Shown here one piece after another: positions 34,107-64,000 of a stretch of 64,000 nt of DNA. The notes beneath the pieces are model-generated. The model was given only the letters and a program-made list of their open reading frames with translations, made no database searches and was not told where the DNA came from. Source of the DNA: Bradyrhizobium macuxiense (GTDB lineage: Bacteria; Pseudomonadota; Alphaproteobacteria; Rhizobiales; Xanthobacteraceae). How positions within the stretch are numbered: the first letter of the stretch is position 1; the number at the start of each line of letters is the position of its first letter. The stretch covers positions 248,001 through 312,000 of the forward strand of contig NZ_VITY01000007.1 in the NCBI RefSeq assembly GCF_007993935.1, in the 5' to 3' direction. The translations under genes were made by a program, and so were the position numbers.

Positions 34107-34123
34107 TCTGGTCCGGTCATTGC

Positions 34124-34178
34124 GATCCCGGGACTCACGCTTGTGATCCCGGGACTCACGATTGTGATCCCGGGACTT
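34124..34178. repeat. 21-bp tandem repeat, about 2.6 copies, containing a stop codon
   Basis: Units begin GATCCCGGGACTCACG at 34124 and 34145; a third, diverging copy starts at 34166. On the minus strand each unit reads through V-P-G-S-x-S and ends in TGA. The innermost copy supplies the real C-terminus and stop of the membrane protein gene, and the two outer copies lie just beyond it. Confidence 0.85.
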
Positions 34179-56248: not shown

Positions 56249-57451
56249 ATGTCTTCCGAATCACAAATCCCCATTGCAGCAAAAGTTGCATCGCGGCGAT
56301 TCGCGCGCAGCCTTGCGGCATTCTATGCCACGCTGTTCGGCATGACCGGGGTTCACCTGCCGTTTTTCACGGTGTGGATGAAAGCGATCGGCATCGATGC
56401 CACCTGGATCGGCATCATCACCGCGGTGCCGCCGGTAACGCGCTTCACCGTGCTGCCGCTGGTCACCGCGGCCGCGGAACGGCGCCAGATGCTGCGCGGC
56501 GCGATCATCGCCACTGGCTTTGCGACCGCGCTCGGCTTTGCCGTGATCGGCACCCAGCACCAGCCGTTCGTGCTGCTCGCGGTCTATGCGCTGACCTGCT
56601 GCGTGTGGACGCCGATGGTGCCGCTCACCGACGCCTATGCGCTGCGCGGCGTCAGGCAGTTCGGCCTCAGCTACGGACCACTGCGGCTGTGGGGCTCGGC
56701 CGCGTTCGCGGTCTGCGCGCTGATCAGCGGGTTCCTGCTGCGCTATGTCGCAGAGGTCGATCTGATCTGGATCATCACCGCCGTGACGGTGCTCGGTGCG
56801 CTGGTCGGGCTGACGTTGCGGCCGCTGGGCCGCCCGGTGGCCGCCGTCGCGCACGCGGCCGGCTCGCCGCGGCTGCTGCGCAATCCCACCTTCCTCGCCA
56901 TCATCGTGTCCTCGGCGCTGATCCAGGGCAGCCACGGCGCCTATTACATCTTCGCATCGATTGCCTGGCAGCAGGCCGGTTTCAGCGGCCTGACCATCGC
57001 GGTGCTCTGGGTGCTCGGCGTGATCGCCGAGATCGTGCTGTTTGCGGCCTCGCCGCGCTTCACGCTGCCGTCGGCGGTGCTGGTGATGATCGCGGCGGCC
57101 AGCGCCGTGGCGCGCTGGGCGATCACCGCGCAGGATCCGCCGCTTGCGGTGCTGGCCGTGGTCCAGCTCGGACACGGGCTAAGCTTCGGGCTGACCCAGG
57201 TCGGCATCATGGGGCTGATGGTGCATCACGTGCCGGTGCATGTGATGGCGCGCGCACAGGGCTATCTCACCGCCTGCGGCGGCATCGTCGCGAGCACCAC
57301 GGCGATCGTCAGCGGCTTGGTCTATGCGCGCTTCGGCCTCGGCGTCTACGACATGATGGCCGCGATGGCGGCCACCGGCGGGCTCGTGATGTGGCTGGCG
57401 CGTCGACGCCTAACCCACCATCATCCCCACAGCGCGGCCTCCGGCGGATAG
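56249..57451 (+). CDS. MFS transporter, phenylpropionate permease (HcaT)-like
   Basis: A 400-residue membrane protein with twelve hydrophobic segments. FYATLFGMTGVHLPFFTVWMKA in segment 1 and LRLWGSAAFAV, plus QGSHGAYYIFASIAWQ at the start of the second half, fit the MFS_1-like/HcaT group rather than sugar porters. Substrate unknown; an aromatic or other organic acid is a guess from the family. A TTG one codon upstream is possible. The last 31 bases overlap the convergent epimerase gene. Confidence 0.88.
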   Translation: MSSESQIPIAAKVASRRFARSLAAFYATLFGMTGVHLPFFTVWMKAIGIDATWIGIITAVPPVTRFTVLPLVTAAAERRQMLRGAIIATGFATALGFAVIGTQHQPFVLLAVYALTCCVWTPMVPLTDAYALRGVRQFGLSYGPLRLWGSAAFAVCALISGFLLRYVAEVDLIWIITAVTVLGALVGLTLRPLGRPVAAVAHAAGSPRLLRNPTFLAIIVSSALIQGSHGAYYIFASIAWQQAGFSGLTIAVLWVLGVIAEIVLFAASPRFTLPSAVLVMIAAASAVARWAITAQDPPLAVLAVVQLGHGLSFGLTQVGIMGLMVHHVPVHVMARAQGYLTACGGIVASTTAIVSGLVYARFGLGVYDMMAAMAATGGLVMWLARRRLTHHHPHSAASGG

Positions 57452-58422
57452 ACCAGGCTGCCCTCGTAGCGCAGGCCGTCGTCGCGGTCGCGCGCCAGCA
57501 GCAGCGGGCCGTCGAGATCGACGAAGCGCGCGGCTTGCGCGATCAGCATCGCCGGCGCCATCGCCAGCGAGGTCGCGACCATGCAGCCGATCATGATCTC
57601 GAAGCCGTGGGCGCGGGCGGCGTCCGCCATCGCGAGCGCTTCAGTCAGCCCGCCGGTCTTGTCGAGCTTGATGTTGACGGCGTCATAGCGCCCGCGCAGG
57701 CCCGCGAGCGAAGCGCGGTCATGCACGCTCTCGTCGGCGCAGACCGCAACCGGGCGCTTGATCCGCGCCAGCGCTTCGTCCTTGCCGGCCGGCAGCGGCT
57801 GCTCGATCAGCGTGACGCCGGCATCGGCGCAGGCTTTGAGGTTGGCGGCGAGGTTGTGCTCGGTCCAGGCTTCGTTGGCATCGACGATCAGTTCGGAGCG
57901 CGGTGCCGCCTTGCGCACGGCCGCGATCCGCGCGCCATCGCCATCGCCGCCGAGCTTGATCTTGAGCAGCGCACGATGCGCGGCCTTCGCGGTGGCCTCC
58001 GCCATCGCCTCTGATGTTCCGAGCGAGATCGTGTAGGCGGTTGTGCGCGGTTCGGGCGCAGGCCGGCCGAGCAGGTTCCAGATCCGCTGCCCGGCGCGTT
58101 TGGCCTCGAGGTCCGCCAGCGCGCAATCCAGCGCGTTGCGGGCGGCGCCAGCGGGCATCTTGGCCTGCAAGGCCGTGCGGTCCATGCCCTCGGCAAGGGG
58201 CTGTTGCATCGCCTGGATCGCCTTGAGCGTCGCCTCGGGCGTTTCGCCATAGCGGGGGTAGGGCACGCATTCGCCGCGGCCCACCAGATCTCCCTGGCTG
58301 ACCTCGGCCACCACCACGACCGCCTCGGTCTTGGCGCCGCGGCTGATCGTGAAGGTCCCGGCGATCGGCCAGCGCTCGATCCGAGCATTCAAGGAAATGG
58401 TCCGGGATGGGCTGGAAGTCAT
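57421..58422 (-). CDS. dipeptide epimerase, enolase superfamily (L-Ala-D/L-Glu epimerase-like)
   Basis: A 333-residue muconate-lactonizing-subgroup enzyme. Catalytic Lys residues are in LLKIKLGG near 155 and NIKLDKTGG near 255; the metal ligands are Asp in VDANEAW, Glu in IEQPLP and Asp in CADES. This matches YcjG-type enzymes that recycle murein peptides by epimerising L-Ala-D-Glu. It begins far from other murein genes; a different dipeptide specificity is possible. Convergent overlap with the MFS gene is 31 bases. Confidence 0.88.
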   Translation of the reverse strand: MTSSPSRTISLNARIERWPIAGTFTISRGAKTEAVVVVAEVSQGDLVGRGECVPYPRYGETPEATLKAIQAMQQPLAEGMDRTALQAKMPAGAARNALDCALADLEAKRAGQRIWNLLGRPAPEPRTTAYTISLGTSEAMAEATAKAAHRALLKIKLGGDGDGARIAAVRKAAPRSELIVDANEAWTEHNLAANLKACADAGVTLIEQPLPAGKDEALARIKRPVAVCADESVHDRASLAGLRGRYDAVNIKLDKTGGLTEALAMADAARAHGFEIMIGCMVATSLAMAPAMLIAQAARFVDLDGPLLLARDRDDGLRYEGSLVYPPEAALWG

Positions 58423-58557
58423 TTTAAAGTCTACTATTTCCTGAACCGTGGCTTGCGACGCGCAACCAACTATGGCTGGTTAGTGACAGATTCGACAAGC
58501 CGATCCGGCAAGCCACCGGAGATGCTACGGCCAGCCGGCTTGAGGGGTAGGCAAAAG

Positions 58558-59691
58558 GTGAGCGGCGACCCGACACTGGAGCGGATAGCCCAAGGCGAAG
58601 GACTGGCGTTGTGCGCGGCGGGCAACTGGACCGCCCGCTTTGCCCCTGCGCTCGAGCGGATCGTCTCCGACGCCGAGAAGCTGCGCGGCAGCCGTCCCCA
58701 CATCTTCATCGACGTGTCGCAGGTCGCAAGCCTCGACACCTTCGGCGCCTGGCTGATCGAGCGGCTGCGCCGCAGTCTGAGCGACGCCAGCGCGGAAGCC
58801 GAGATCGCGGGCCTCTCGGCCAATTACTCCAGCCTGGTCGACGAGGTCCGCCGCGTCGGCCCAGCGCCCAGGGTCGTGAACGACCGGCTGTCGATCACGG
58901 GCATGCTCGAGCAGATCGGCCGCACCGTGGCGGGGGTCAGCGGCACCATCATCGGCCTGGTCGACATGCTCGGCGCGGTGCTGGCCGCGGCCGGCAAGGT
59001 GCTGATCCATCCGCGCAGCTTCCGCCTGACCTCGACGGTGCATCATCTCGAGCAGGTGTGCTGGCGCGCGGTGCCGATCGTGGTGCTGATCACCTTCCTG
59101 ATCGGCTGCATCATCTCGCAGCAGGGCATCTTCCATTTCCGCAGGTTCGGCGCCGACATCTTCGTGGTCGACATGCTGGGCGTGCTGGTGTTGCGCGAGA
59201 TCGGCGTGCTGCTGGTCGCGATCATGGTCGCGGGCCGCTCCGGCTCGGCCTATACCGCCGAGCTCGGCTCGATGAAGATGCGCGAGGAGATCGACGCGCT
59301 GCGCACCATGGGCTTCGATCCGATCGAGGTCCTGATCCTGCCGCGCATGCTGGCGCTGGTGCTGGCGCTGCCGATCCTGGCCTTCCTCGGCGCCATGGCC
59401 GCGCTCTATGGCGGCGGCCTGGTGGCGTGGCTCTATGGCGGCGTCGATCCGGAGGCCTTCCTGCTCCGCCTTCGTGATGCCATATCGATCGACCATTTCA
59501 TCGTCGGCATGGTCAAGGCGCCGGTCATGGCGGCGGTGATCGGCATCGTCGCCTGCGTCGAGGGGCTGGCGGTGCAGGGATCGGCGGAATCGCTCGGTCA
59601 GCACACCACCGCGTCGGTGGTGAAAGGGATCTTCTTCGTGATCGTGATGGACGGCGTGTTCGCGATCTTCTTCGCCTCGATCGGGATGTGA
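58558..59691 (+). CDS. mlaE: lipid-transport ABC permease with N-terminal STAS domain (MlaE-type)
   Basis: About 377 residues. Residues 5-105 form a STAS domain (HIFIDVSQVASLDTFGAWLIERL), normally a separate protein (MlaB). The rest is MlaE: REIGVLLVAIMVAGRSGSAYTAELGSMKMREEIDALRTMG is the diagnostic stretch (shown in words: Arg-Ser-Gly-Ser-Ala near residue 228). Five membrane helices. Start GTG at 58558 has GAGGGG ten bases upstream; ATG at 58522 is an alternative but overlaps its own GGAG. With the next two genes it forms an outer-membrane lipid-asymmetry transporter. Confidence 0.9.
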   Translation: MSGDPTLERIAQGEGLALCAAGNWTARFAPALERIVSDAEKLRGSRPHIFIDVSQVASLDTFGAWLIERLRRSLSDASAEAEIAGLSANYSSLVDEVRRVGPAPRVVNDRLSITGMLEQIGRTVAGVSGTIIGLVDMLGAVLAAAGKVLIHPRSFRLTSTVHHLEQVCWRAVPIVVLITFLIGCIISQQGIFHFRRFGADIFVVDMLGVLVLREIGVLLVAIMVAGRSGSAYTAELGSMKMREEIDALRTMGFDPIEVLILPRMLALVLALPILAFLGAMAALYGGGLVAWLYGGVDPEAFLLRLRDAISIDHFIVGMVKAPVMAAVIGIVACVEGLAVQGSAESLGQHTTASVVKGIFFVIVMDGVFAIFFASIGM

Positions 59692-59693
59692 TC

Positions 59694-60464
59694 ATGGCGG
59701 AGCAGGACATCGACGCCATCATCCGGGTTCGCGACGTCACCGTGCAATTCGGCACCACGCGCGTGCTCGACGGCCTCGACCTCGACGTCAAGCGCGGTGA
59801 GATCCTCGGCTTTGTCGGCCCGTCGGGCGCCGGCAAGTCGGTGCTGACGCGCACCATCATCGGCCTCGTGCCGAAGGTCTCCGGCCGCATCGAAGTGTTC
59901 GGCGTCGATCTCGATGCCGCAAGCTCGTCGCAGCGCCGCGCCGTCGAGCGGCGCTGGGGCATCCTGTTCCAGCAGGGCGCGCTGTTCTCTTCGCTCACGG
60001 TGCGCCAGAACATCCAGTTTCCGGCGCGCGAATATCTGCGCGTCTCGCAGCGGCTGCTCGACGAGATCATGGTGGCGAAGCTGGTGATGGTCGGCCTCAA
60101 GCCCGAGGTCGCCGATCGCTATCCGTCGGAACTGTCCGGCGGCATGATCAAGCGCGTCGCGCTGGCGCGCGCACTCGCGCTCGATCCGGAGCTGGTGTTT
60201 CTCGACGAGCCGACCTCGGGCCTCGATCCGATCGGCGCCGGCGATTTCGACGAGCTGGTGCGGACCTTGCAGCGCACTTTGGGGCTGACCGTTTTCATGG
60301 TAACCCACGATCTCGACAGTCTTTACACCGCGTGCGACCGTATCGCCGTTTTAGGGAACGGTAAGATCATTGCTGCAGGATCGATCGCCGACATGAAGGC
60401 ATCGCAGCATCCATGGCTGCAGCAATATTTCAACGGCAAGCGCGCCCGAGCCGTTGTGGCCTAG
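59694..60464 (+). CDS. mlaF: lipid-transport ABC ATPase (MlaF-type)
   Basis: A 256-residue ATPase. Walker A GPSGAGKS is near residue 42, the Q-loop QQGALFSSLT near 95, signature LSGGMIKR near 145 (the M-x-K-R variant is typical of MlaF), Walker B LVFLDEPTSGLDP near 168 and the H-loop MVTHDLDS. It energises the MlaE permease. The ATG lies two bases beyond the MlaE stop, and a GTG overlapping that stop could also be used, so translation is coupled. Confidence 0.92.
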   Translation: MAEQDIDAIIRVRDVTVQFGTTRVLDGLDLDVKRGEILGFVGPSGAGKSVLTRTIIGLVPKVSGRIEVFGVDLDAASSSQRRAVERRWGILFQQGALFSSLTVRQNIQFPAREYLRVSQRLLDEIMVAKLVMVGLKPEVADRYPSELSGGMIKRVALARALALDPELVFLDEPTSGLDPIGAGDFDELVRTLQRTLGLTVFMVTHDLDSLYTACDRIAVLGNGKIIAAGSIADMKASQHPWLQQYFNGKRARAVVA

Positions 60465-60466
60465 CC

Positions 60467-60509
60467 CATGATCCCGAAACGAGAAGGCCGGTTTTCGGAC
60501 GAGATCATG
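60467..60509. repeat. short dispersed palindrome between mlaF and mlaD
   Basis: CATGATC (60467-60473) and GATCATG (60503-60509) with inner CCCGAAA and TTTTCGG arms. It starts three bases after the mlaF stop, inside an operon. Confidence 0.75.
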
Positions 60510-60596
60510 CGCCAACAGGGAATTCGACCGGCTCGAACGCAGGCTGCCTGCGCCGGAGCCCAAGAGTAATTCAAGAGTGATGAACGCGAGCAATTG

Positions 60597-61469
60597 ATGG
60601 AAACGCGGGCGAACTACGTCTTGATCGGGGCTTTCACGCTGGCGGTGATCGCCGCCGCGTTCGGCTTCGTGCTGTGGTTCCAGAGCCTGCACACCACCAA
60701 GCAGCGCAGCCCCTTGCGGGTGATCTTCGAGGGGCCGGCGTCGGGCCTCCGCAATGGCGGCAATGTCAATTTTAACGGTATCCGGATAGGGGAGGTGGTG
60801 TCGGTGAAGCTCGACAATCCGCGGCGCGTCGTGGCGCTGGCGATGATCGAGAACAACGCACCGCTGCGCAAGGACACCCTGGTCGGTCTCGAATTCCAGG
60901 GCCTCACCGGCGTCGCCGCGATCTCGCTGAAGGGCGGTGAGGAGGCCGCCCCGCCGGTGCCGCTGGATGAGGACGGCATCCCGGTTCTGACCGCCGACCC
61001 CAACGCATTGCAGGACGTCACCGAGGCGATCCGCGCCACCCTGCAAAACGTCAACCGCATCGTCGCCGACAATCAGCAGTCGGTGAAGAATTCGCTGAAG
61101 AACCTCGAAGTCTTCACCGAGGCGCTGGCGCGCAATTCCGAGAAGATCGACAACGTCATGCTCAAGGTCGACGGCGTGATGGGCAAAGCCGACAATCTGA
61201 TGCTGGGCCTCAATGCAATCGCCGGCGGCAACAATGGCAGCGAGCTGAACCTGATGGTGAAGTCGATCCGCGAGCTCGCCGACAATGTCGACAAGCGGAC
61301 CAATCTCCTGATCAACGACGGTCGCCGCACGCTCGCCGACATCAGCCGCGCCGTGAACAATTTCGACCGCAACCCGAGCCGGGTGATCTTCGGCGGCAGC
61401 AACAACGCCGCACCCGAGCCCGCACCCGCTCCCGCCGCAGCACCGGCAGGCCCGCGGCGCCGGCAGTGA
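60597..61469 (+). CDS. mlaD: MlaD-family (MCE-domain) lipid-binding protein
   Basis: A 290-residue periplasmic protein held by an N-terminal helix (residues 6-26). One MCE domain follows (about 38-118): PLRVIFEGPASGLRNGGNVNFNGIRIGEV. Then a long helix region (about 140-250) rich in Asn, Asp and Val, and a Pro/Ala tail. MCE rings carry phospholipid between membranes. A gap of about 130 bases with a palindrome separates it from mlaF. No MlaC or MlaA gene is in the window. Confidence 0.9.
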   Translation: METRANYVLIGAFTLAVIAAAFGFVLWFQSLHTTKQRSPLRVIFEGPASGLRNGGNVNFNGIRIGEVVSVKLDNPRRVVALAMIENNAPLRKDTLVGLEFQGLTGVAAISLKGGEEAAPPVPLDEDGIPVLTADPNALQDVTEAIRATLQNVNRIVADNQQSVKNSLKNLEVFTEALARNSEKIDNVMLKVDGVMGKADNLMLGLNAIAGGNNGSELNLMVKSIRELADNVDKRTNLLINDGRRTLADISRAVNNFDRNPSRVIFGGSNNAAPEPAPAPAAAPAGPRRRQ

Positions 61470-61520: not shown

Positions 61521-61608
61521 CCGTCATTGCGAGGAGCGACGCGACGAAGCAATCCATCGCGCCGCGTACGCCGAGGGATGGATTGCTTCGCTTCGCTCGC
61601 AATGACGG
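61521..61608. repeat. palindromic repeat with CCGTCATTGCGAG arms
   Basis: CCGTCATTGCGAG (61521-61533) and CTCGCAATGACGG (61596-61608), with inner CGAAGCAATCCATC and GATGGATTGCTTCG arms. It lies between mlaD and the terminator. Confidence 0.88.
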
Positions 61609-61670
61609 TCGTTGACCTGCCATCGCGCCGTCGCAGATACCGGGTCTGCTGATCAGCTCGCCAAAACAAA

Positions 61671-61692: not shown

Positions 61693-61732
61693 TCTTCATT
61701 CGCTATTCGCTACTCACTATTCGCCGATCAGC

Positions 61733-64000
61733 TTACCCCAGCCGTCCCGCGGCGTGCGCGAGCAGGGTGTAGACCAGCCCGGTCTCCGAGGTCAGGTGGC
61801 CAGCCAGCTCCTGCTGGCCGCGACCTTCGCGGGCGACCTCGTCGAGCAGGCGCTCGAACTCCGCGATGTAGCGGTCGACGGTCTGCTTGAAGCCGCGATC
61901 GGCGCGGTACTTGCGGGCCACCTCGTCGAAGGCCTTCTGGCCGGCCGGCGTGTAGAGGCGCTTGCTGAACGCCTTGTTCTCGCCGCGCTGGTAGCGATCC
62001 CACATCTCGGCCGCCAGGGTGCGATCCATCAACCGGCCGATGTCGAGCGACAGCGACTCCAGCGGATTGGCGGCCGGCTGCTGCGGACGCGGCCGCTGCT
62101 GGGCGTCGCGGCCCTGCGGGGCAGGCGGCGGCGCGTCGCTGCGGTTGAGCAGGTCGGACAGCCAGCCGTCACCGTTGTTGGAGCCGGCCGGGCTGACCGA
62201 CGGGGCCTCCGTGCGGCGCGAGCTCGTCATGCCGAGATCGGGCGGCGGCAGCGTCGAAGCGCTGTTACCATTGTCCCGCACGCTGTCCCGCATCCGCACG
62301 TCGGCACGGCCGCCGGCGGCGGCAGCCATCACCGGTTCCTCGTGGCGGACGCTGGCACGGTTGGTCGAGACCACGTCGAGCCCGCGGCCGTGATGGGCGA
62401 CGATGCGGTTCAGCTCGGCCAGCGCCTCGATCTGGTCGACGATCACCTTGCGCATCTGCGCGGTGTTTTCGGCGGCCTCCTGCGGCATTTCGAGCACGCC
62501 GCGGCGCAGCTCGTTGCGGGTGGCCTCGAGCTCGCTGTGCATCTCGCTCGCCATCTGCTTCATCGCCGTGACCATCGCGGAGAACTTCTCCGTCGATTCC
62601 TTGAACATCGCATCGGTCTCGGCGTTGCTCTGCTGGTAGAGCTCGTTCATGGCGTCGACGGTCTGCTGACGCTCGTTCTCGGCCGCCTGGCGCACCGCTT
62701 CGAACTGCCTGCTGATCGCAGCCGAACCGGCACCTGCGGTCTCCGCCACCACGCGGGCGATGTCGCGGGCGCGTTCCTCGGCCGCGCCGAGCGATTCATC
62801 GAGCAGCCCGGTGAAGCGCGACAGCCGCTGGTCGAGATCGGTGGTGCGCAGGTCGATGGTGGTGACCAGCGCTTCCAGCGCCTCCTTGCGCTCGCTGACG
62901 GACGCCGTCGTCGAGCGGTTGGCCTGCTCGACCACGGCAGCCGCATCGATCAGCGCCTTGCCATGGGTCTCGAACTGGCTCGACAGCGCGCCGAGATCTT
63001 CCAGCGCCTTGCCGGTCTTGCTGTTGAACACCGTGAGCTGGTCTTCCAGCGTCTGGGTCGCGACGCCGTTGCGCGAGGTGACGTCGTTCATGGCGGACAC
63101 GAAGTCGGCCACGCGGGTCACCAGCGCGCGCTCCAGCGAGTTGAGGTTGTCGTGGGCGCCGGTCAACACTTCCTGCAGCAGGATGTTGCCCTCGCGCAGC
63201 CGCTCGAACAGCGCCACCGTATCGGTGCGCAGGATCTTGCTGGTCTCCTGCATCTCCGTGACCGCCGAGATCGAGACCTGGCGCGACTGGTCGATCGCCG
63301 CGCGCGAGGCGTGCTCGAGCTCCTTGAGCGACTTCGCCACCGCGCCGGTCGCCTGATCGCCGGCCGAGGTGATGTTGCGCGCGACGTCGCCGCCATGCGC
63401 CGCCATCGACTGCGAGAAGGCGAGGCCGCGGGTTTCGATCGCCTTCAGCGCATCTGCCGTGGCGCGGTCCATGTCGCTCGAAAGCTGCGTGGTCTTGGCG
63501 GTCAGCGCCTCGATCAGCGAGCCGCGGCGGCCGTCGACCATCTGCGACAGACGCTCGGTCTGCTGCTGCACATAGGTGACGATCTCGTCGGTCTTGCCGG
63601 TCATCGCCGAGCCGAACGCGCTTGTTGCGGACAGCACCGAACGCTCGATGTCGGCCGAGGTCGTCTTGACCTTGGTCGAGACCTCGTTGGACATGGTGAT
63701 CAGTGCGGCCTGTGCGTTCTGCGCAGAGGTCTGGATGTTGTCGGTGGTCTTGGCCGTGACCGAACCCAGCGCGCGCTCGATATCGGTCGAGAGCGTGCGG
63801 ATCTGCGCGGCGGCATCGGCGGAGGTCGCCGCAAACGAGCTCTGGGCTTCGCGGGCGCTGCCCAGGATGGTCTGTGCGGTCTCCGCGCTGGCCGTGGTCA
63901 GCGTGCGCTCGATCTCGACGGAGATCGCGCGGATCTGGGTTGCGGCCTCGCTCGACGTTGCGACGAACGAGTTCTGGGCATCGCGGGCACTGCCGAGGAT
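61733..64000 (-). CDS. very long coiled-coil protein with 44-residue repeats (start outside window)
   Basis: The minus-strand frame is open from the window edge to the stop at 61733, 755 residues so far; the start lies beyond 64000. The first 130 visible residues form three units of a 44-residue repeat (ILGSAREAQSSFAATS..., then Q-I-R-x-x-S-x-D-I-E-R), starting at 64000, 63868 and 63736. The next 400 residues are helical and coiled-coil-like. A disordered Pro/Gln-rich stretch comes next, then a C-terminal domain ending LLAHAAGRLG with SLDIGRLMDRTLAAEMWDRY. I recall similar giant proteins in rhizobia with no known role; a methyl-accepting-like or scaffold function is a guess. Confidence 0.85.
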   Translation of the reverse strand: MLGSARDAQNSFVATSSEAATQIRAISVEIERTLTTASAETAQTILGSAREAQSSFAATSADAAAQIRTLSTDIERALGSVTAKTTDNIQTSAQNAQAALITMSNEVSTKVKTTSADIERSVLSATSAFGSAMTGKTDEIVTYVQQQTERLSQMVDGRRGSLIEALTAKTTQLSSDMDRATADALKAIETRGLAFSQSMAAHGGDVARNITSAGDQATGAVAKSLKELEHASRAAIDQSRQVSISAVTEMQETSKILRTDTVALFERLREGNILLQEVLTGAHDNLNSLERALVTRVADFVSAMNDVTSRNGVATQTLEDQLTVFNSKTGKALEDLGALSSQFETHGKALIDAAAVVEQANRSTTASVSERKEALEALVTTIDLRTTDLDQRLSRFTGLLDESLGAAEERARDIARVVAETAGAGSAAISRQFEAVRQAAENERQQTVDAMNELYQQSNAETDAMFKESTEKFSAMVTAMKQMASEMHSELEATRNELRRGVLEMPQEAAENTAQMRKVIVDQIEALAELNRIVAHHGRGLDVVSTNRASVRHEEPVMAAAAGGRADVRMRDSVRDNGNSASTLPPPDLGMTSSRRTEAPSVSPAGSNNGDGWLSDLLNRSDAPPPAPQGRDAQQRPRPQQPAANPLESLSLDIGRLMDRTLAAEMWDRYQRGENKAFSKRLYTPAGQKAFDEVARKYRADRGFKQTVDRYIAEFERLLDEVAREGRGQQELAGHLTSETGLVYTLLAHAAGRLG

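Follow-up and report, generated by a model that had tools for sequence, protein, structure and literature searches.

A Bradyrhizobium ortholog of GPR/RgsE with an array of 44-residue units and a rod whose length differs between species in steps of 11 and 44 residues

A 2,020-residue relative of the polar growth proteins GPR and RgsE

GPR reportedly made its first appearance in the paper of Zupan et al. 2019. GPR of Agrobacterium tumefaciens (Atu1348, 2,115 aa) is located at the growing pole (PMC8262873), and the same has been described for RgsE of Sinorhizobium meliloti (SMc00190, 2,089 aa), which is absent from the septum and is reported to be 42% identical to GPR (PMC7327166). For these relatives, a ring at the pole and shape defects have been published, and the C terminus is needed in Agrobacterium (PMC8262873, PMC7327166); furthermore, the homolog from B. 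abortus is found at the new pole (PMC9938171). GPR is said to resemble TipN of Caulobacter crescentus (882 aa; PMC8546619), which has been termed analogous (PMC13170164).

The window analyzed here is a stretch of 64,000 nucleotides of Bradyrhizobium macuxiense DNA. Its last minus-strand open frame (61733-64000) comprises 755 codons and is open at the edge, in agreement with the earlier note, which had described a coiled-coil frame with a repeat running off the window. Neither a stop nor a start follows just past the edge. The gene runs 1,265 residues further and has 2,020 codons in total (L007:4734-10796, minus strand; G000:C7), and the window holds the C-terminal 755 aa (residues 1266-2020).

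The encoded protein starts with MANTPKKVKDPTE, and the N-terminal motif MA-N/T/K-P-K/R-K is common to the genus-level frames examined, with five exceptions. Residues ~1-100, which are without clear structure, are followed by two predicted membrane segments (residues 106-124 and 138-156), recognized as hydropathy peaks. The rod shows repeat periods of 22, 33 and 11 at residues 170-790 and then contains the array of 44-residue units (residues 826-1397). Past the array lies a non-repeated helical rod (62486-63604, minus strand, the 62486 end being approximate), delineated by its fixed spacing in the genus and by similarity to PF01442, for which residues 1398-1587 are the best stretch. The end of the rod and a Pro/Gly/Ala-rich linker come next (together at approximately 62072-62485, minus strand; assigned by reading the sequence), and the linker is free to vary in length between species. 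The last ~112 residues form a conserved C-terminal domain with seven predicted helices (61736-62071, minus strand), defined by alignment, profile and an AlphaFold2 model.

In a Pfam search of all 2,020 residues (E <= 0.001), PF01442 was the sole match (four stretches; score 178.1 bits, cut-off 90), and a motor or ATPase domain was not found; the part of the protein within the window scores 71.8 bits alone, under the same cut-off, and has no match in NCBIfam. The AlphaFold2 model of residues 1311-1730 is all-helix, with three long helices predicted at a confidence too low for the model to be of use (mean pLDDT 59.6, pTM 0.29). On the other strand, there is an antisense open frame (61754-64000, plus strand; 749 codons within the window, 2,083 codons in L007), which most likely arises from codon usage at high G+C alone.

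When RgsE of S. meliloti is compared with the B. macuxiense genome, four matches are obtained, every one of which is in the 2,020-aa frame, the identity being 38% toward the C terminus and 31% toward the N terminus; BLASTP gives an E-value of 1e-62 and 26% identity over 850 columns. The similarity is confined to the N- and C-terminal parts and does not extend to the middle of the rod. Both ends match reciprocally, and the identity over the last 112 residues reaches 52%. GPR, compared through its published description and through RgsE, has the same general plan (a length of ~2,000 aa, a pair of membrane domains at the N terminus, a PF01442-type rod and a Pro-rich stretch near the C terminus). 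RgsE differs from the Bradyrhizobium protein in its rod repeats (periods of 106 and 29, versus 44 in B. macuxiense) and in its gene neighborhood (petABC downstream in S. meliloti, versus a Mla/Mpc-type cassette in B. macuxiense). The nearest named relatives come from Bradyrhizobium sp. CER78 and B. mercantei, with best segments 99% and 97% identical, respectively. Among plasmid records, the protein has matches in five, four from Sinorhizobium and one from Shinella. The homolog from S. meliloti Ak57 has 2,089 codons, the length of the published RgsE, and is annotated "kinesin". A record titled S. meliloti Ak57 plasmid pSymB (L031, CP090106.1), which is 3.72 Mb in size and encodes petABC as well as an rgsE homolog, looks like a mislabeled chromosome.

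On the evidence gathered here, the gene very probably encodes the GPR/RgsE of Bradyrhizobium, i.e., a cytoplasmic scaffold that is anchored in the membrane and serves unipolar growth, and by analogy with its relatives, it would have the same role in pole localization, ring formation and cell shape. The earlier note had suggested a giant polar scaffold not yet described; the kind of protein was correctly anticipated, whereas the protein itself is an ortholog of the already described GPR and RgsE.

The 44-residue array and the variation of rod length

The array consists of 13 units at an exact spacing of 44 residues, 3 of which are inside the window and 10 outside. Unit 11 of 13, composed of four hendecads, occupies 63869-64000, unit 12 occupies 63737-63868, and unit 13, which is degenerate and 32% identical to unit 12, occupies 63605-63736 (all on the minus strand). 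The three aligned units reported in the earlier note are found at these positions, and extension of the sequence followed by counting confirmed its expectation that the array is longer beyond the edge. The repeat had also been called exact, which is true of the period and not of the sequence, given that, within the window, each unit and the next share 57% and 32% of their residues, respectively (72% and 50% identity in DNA).

Each 44-mer can be divided into four 11-residue blocks (hendecads) that start mostly with I, L or V, and four positions are invariant in all 13 units, namely 5 (A), 8 (A), 9 (Q) and 16 (S). Identity at an offset of 44 across residues 826-1397 is 0.602, well above chance: in 1,000 shuffles, it averaged 0.114 and never rose above 0.161; Tandem Repeats Finder, when applied to the window, did not list the array of 44-residue units. 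Identity between neighbors is highest in units 5 to 8 (84-91% for protein, 86-92% for DNA), and the outer units are worn. Such a gradient would arise if units were gained and lost mainly in the central part of the array, as may be the case here. The hydrophobic period is 3.665 residues, that is, 11/3, both in the array and in the rod preceding it, and 3.595 in the rod that follows, which implies that not all of the rod is hendecad.

To compare rod length within the genus, we used 60 of the 146 other genus genomes, picked for spread and uncut frames, together with the best 80 of 270 named relatives and the B. macuxiense gene itself. Five loci for which no start was found (L114, L168, L177, L203 and L230) were dropped and identical proteins were removed, leaving 120 sequences, mostly from Bradyrhizobium, with a few named rows being MAGs labeled only to family, order or class. 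The spacings between several anchors are identical in all 120 (124 residues for A1-A2, 140 for A2-A3 and 96 for post-mid). The rod before the array (A3-pre) spans 243-375 residues, and modulo 11, the 119 rows form two classes, of 100 and 19 members. The spacing that includes the array (pre-post) ranges from 219 to 703 residues across 119 rows, L105 being excluded from these counts on account of a poor anchor; 118 of the 119 values belong to one class modulo 11 and 107 to one class modulo 44, although the rows are related and the counts are not independent events. Among the 20 distinct values, a count in which closely related rows weigh less, 19 fit 11 and 12 fit 44. The sole off-grid value, 570 in L171 (Bradyrhizobium pachyrhizi PAC 48), is off by one; this strain may truly have lost one residue, or the sequence may contain an error. 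The mid-ctd spacing, which holds the linker and served as a control, takes 26 distinct values with no preferred class.

The fixed anchors and the 11- and 44-residue classes together indicate that the length of the rod shifts by whole hendecads or whole units, with the rest of the protein being constant; presumably, such steps are tolerated because the helical phase is kept. These species-to-species differences in whole 11- or 44-residue steps are apparently an unreported pattern. The available text of the GPR and RgsE papers mentions neither the 44-residue array nor step-wise variation of length (PMC8262873, PMC7327166), and in the open-license papers searched, the growth pole ring and the hendecad do not appear together, which leaves room for mention in print elsewhere.

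At the level of the order, we examined 44 loci (40 of the 118 other matching genomes, the B. macuxiense gene and three Rhizobiaceae), a set that leans to long rods because longer, mostly uncut frames were picked. For 41 of the 44, the hydrophobic period lies at 3.655-3.67, the differing loci being L138, L139 (3.625) and L162 (3.65). At least two separate hydrophobic N-terminal segments are present in 41 of the 44 as well; L139 is cut, and L142 and L155 have one segment each. The best repeat periods depend on the lineage: in many of the 44 loci, these are multiples of 11 (22, 33, 44, 55, 66 and 88), and in others, periods of 29, 36, 40, 51, 62, 80, 94 or 106 were found. Thus, the 44-residue period is not universal, and the arrays are likely to have been rebuilt repeatedly on the same rod.

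Conserved ends, shorter relatives and the distribution of MreB

With the last 322 residues as the query (E <= 0.001), a match was detected in 119 of the 121 sampled genomes of the order, the two remaining genomes being 67% and 71% complete, and in all 147 genomes of the genus; in the B. macuxiense genome, the C-terminal domain is present in a single copy. A profile made from 33 C-terminal domain rows matches 93 of 241 alphaproteobacterial genomes, 4 of them from the same order, and the matching proteins are mostly shorter. Comparison of the 33 rows with Pfam gave no match below an E-value of 0.01, the 12 matches from a PDB sequence search with the profile (E-values up to 1, the best at 0.035) were not convincing, and Foldseek, applied to the domain as modeled by AlphaFold2 (mean pLDDT 69.1, pTM 0.56), gave no match at E <= 0.001.

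We took 20 further loci, 15 of which are from outside the order, and in all 15 of these, the hydrophobic period of the rod is 3.56-3.625. When 42 long proteins from within the order are compared with the 15 from outside it, the 75 residues past the second membrane segment align with a probability of 97.4 and an E-value of 1.5e-11 over 75 columns, versus probabilities of 0.2-0.5 for five column-shuffled controls. The matches in the juxtamembrane segment and in the C-terminal domain imply that both ends are common to the long and the shorter proteins, whereas the middle differs. Shorter proteins with these two ends are widespread in the class and include two frames of 881 and 886 aa from one family; some of these short proteins may be TipN. 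TipN and RgsE do not occur together in the open-license papers searched, and such a link could be in print elsewhere.

In the B. macuxiense genome, TIGR00904 has no match at 1e-60, and the matches for mreB are all weak, the best reaching 42 bits against a cut-off of 365.75. Across the order sample, mreB is above the cut-off in 15 of 121 genomes, all 15 of which have a match for the C-terminal domain; an mreB fragment under the cut-off in G009 was counted as absence. After 8 frames under 800 aa were left out (2 with MreB and 6 without), frames longer than 1,500 aa were found in 0 of 13 genomes with MreB versus 73 of 98 without it (P 1.4e-5, kinship ignored); counted by family (9 versus 42 families), P is 0.0034, again with kinship ignored. 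Two observations speak against a strict rule. The other 25 of the 98 frames from genomes lacking MreB are also <=1,500 aa, although contig ends have surely truncated some of these, and among domain-containing genomes from outside the order, 13 of 89 frames are longer than 1,500 aa even though MreB is present in 85 of the 89. RgsE-type and MreB proteins have been proposed to be mutually exclusive (PMC7327166). Under the looser criterion of the C-terminal domain, this exclusion fails, given that all 15 MreB-containing genomes of the order and 85 of the 89 outside have both.

Gene neighborhood, rival readings and a possible mechanism

Convergently to the gene, the window encodes a cassette on the plus strand that consists of a STAS-MlaE/MpcE-like permease (58204-59691, start putative; PF02405 above the Pfam cut-off, with a STAS_2 match of 21.0 bits below it), a MlaF/MpcF-like ABC ATPase (59688-60464; PF00005) and a MlaD/MpcD-like substrate-binding protein (60594-61469; PF02470), all of which were also identified at other loci. 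This cassette (58204-61469) resembles the Mpc system of Hyphomicrobiales; in Brucella, STAS is fused to MlaE in this system, MlaD is long and the operon order is E-F-D-A (PMC12436622). The MlaE/MlaF/MlaD trio is located near the gpr-type gene in 25 of the 44 selected loci, in 24 of them convergently downstream, and a fourth frame of ~215-230 codons between the cassette and the gpr-type gene, conserved in 23 of 43 loci, may be MpcA. Among the neighbors used for comparison, a pyridine-nucleotide-disulfide reductase (PyrRedox, flavoprotein-type) with no evident link is present in 19 of the 44 loci, and relatives of the window gene at 57421-58422 flank the gpr-type gene in 12 of 43 loci. The frequency of the reductase suggests that the neighborhood may simply be ancestral order; the linkage of the cassette is above random expectation, though it may be plain ancestral gene order. 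We did not accept the neighborhood as proof of function because this unrelated-looking reductase is nearly as frequent. RgsE and the growth pole are unmentioned in the Mpc paper (PMC12436622), and in the open-license papers searched, Mla, growth pole and lipid asymmetry do not occur together, although they could do so in print elsewhere.

The intergenic region between the convergent genes contains an inverted repeat at ~61540-61610 (cattgcgagcgaagcgaagcaatcca ... tggattgcttcg...cgctcctcgcaatg) with the appearance of a dispersed palindromic element. Two tandem repeats were also noted, one of 7 bases at 61698-61724 and one of 21 bases at 34119-34177 (2.8 copies, 92% matches).

Several other readings of the locus have to be weighed against a GPR/RgsE-type scaffold. 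Draft genomes can mis-assemble repeat arrays, and this genome consists of 48 contigs, so that the 44-residue array might be an assembly or low-complexity artifact with no bearing on the protein. However, the array lies within one contig of 449,538 bases, its units are not identical in sequence, and like arrays exist in 119 orthologs from many assemblies, some of them single-contig; accordingly, we give this reading almost no credence. A cell-division or chromosome-partition coiled-coil protein of the SMC or kinesin type, for which the annotation of the S. meliloti homolog and the coiled-coil homology to SMC mentioned in the available text of PMC7327166 might speak, is also very improbable: in 2,020 residues, Pfam shows PF01442 alone, membrane anchors are predicted, and RgsE/GPR is described at the growing pole with none at the septum (PMC7327166). 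The kinesin/SMC-type interpretation was dropped because the protein has no such domain, and the cell-division scaffold considered in the earlier note is less likely than a polar growth scaffold because the same paper places RgsE at the growing pole and finds none at the septum.

More weight is due to the proposal that the protein is primarily lipid-handling, i.e., an apolipoprotein-like or lipid-droplet/membrane-coating protein with helices lying flat on the membrane, which would act on growth via lipid supply rather than by scaffolding wall enzymes. The PF01442 score above the cut-off, the hydrophobic periodicity of exactly 11/3, the Mla/Mpc-type cassette convergently downstream in 24 of the 44 selected loci and the lipid role for GPR proposed by Zupan et al. 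(PMC8262873, available text) are all compatible with this proposal, but hendecads are found in coiled coils too, and the reductase adjoins 19 of the same 44 loci, where the gene order may be ancestral. Like apolipoproteins A-I/A-IV (PF01442), the protein has amphipathic helical repeats of 11/22 residues; unlike these, it is bacterial, membrane-anchored and five times longer, and a match to a repeat profile is not proof of common ancestry. On balance, we consider a primarily lipid-handling function possible though doubtful.

Under the preferred interpretation as a GPR/RgsE scaffold, the two predicted N-terminal membrane helices would anchor the protein in the inner membrane. The rod, ~1,600 residues of what is probably, for the most part, a hendecad (11/3) amphipathic helix, could contact lipid or partner proteins, and the disordered linker would bear the small helical C-terminal domain, whose functional need is suggested by the findings in Agrobacterium. 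By homology, copies of the protein may assemble into a ring at the new pole, so that in these cells, which lack MreB, the synthesis of peptidoglycan and membrane would be restricted to the tip. The array of 44-residue units would be a recently expanded stretch of the rod that gains or loses whole 44-residue, and sometimes 11-residue, units; because whole-unit gain and loss keep the helical phase, the flanking parts would stay in register. More speculatively, and with rather low probability, a shorter anchored polar ancestor with the same two ends might have been lengthened in Rhizobiales by repeated duplication of hendecads as MreB was lost. Rod length, in phase-preserving steps of 11 and 44, would then determine how large the polar growth zone is or how far it reaches, and the neighboring Mla/Mpc-type lipid transporter would be recruited to the tip by the rod.

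The end domain, which is outside Pfam and common to shorter proteins of the class, provides a way to trace the origin of the protein. Natural orthologs form a series in which the array spacing goes from 219 to 703 residues by 44s and the protein is otherwise fixed in its spacing, so that the importance of rod length can be tested on existing variants. GPR/RgsE is a leading candidate for a substitute of MreB in unipolar growers.
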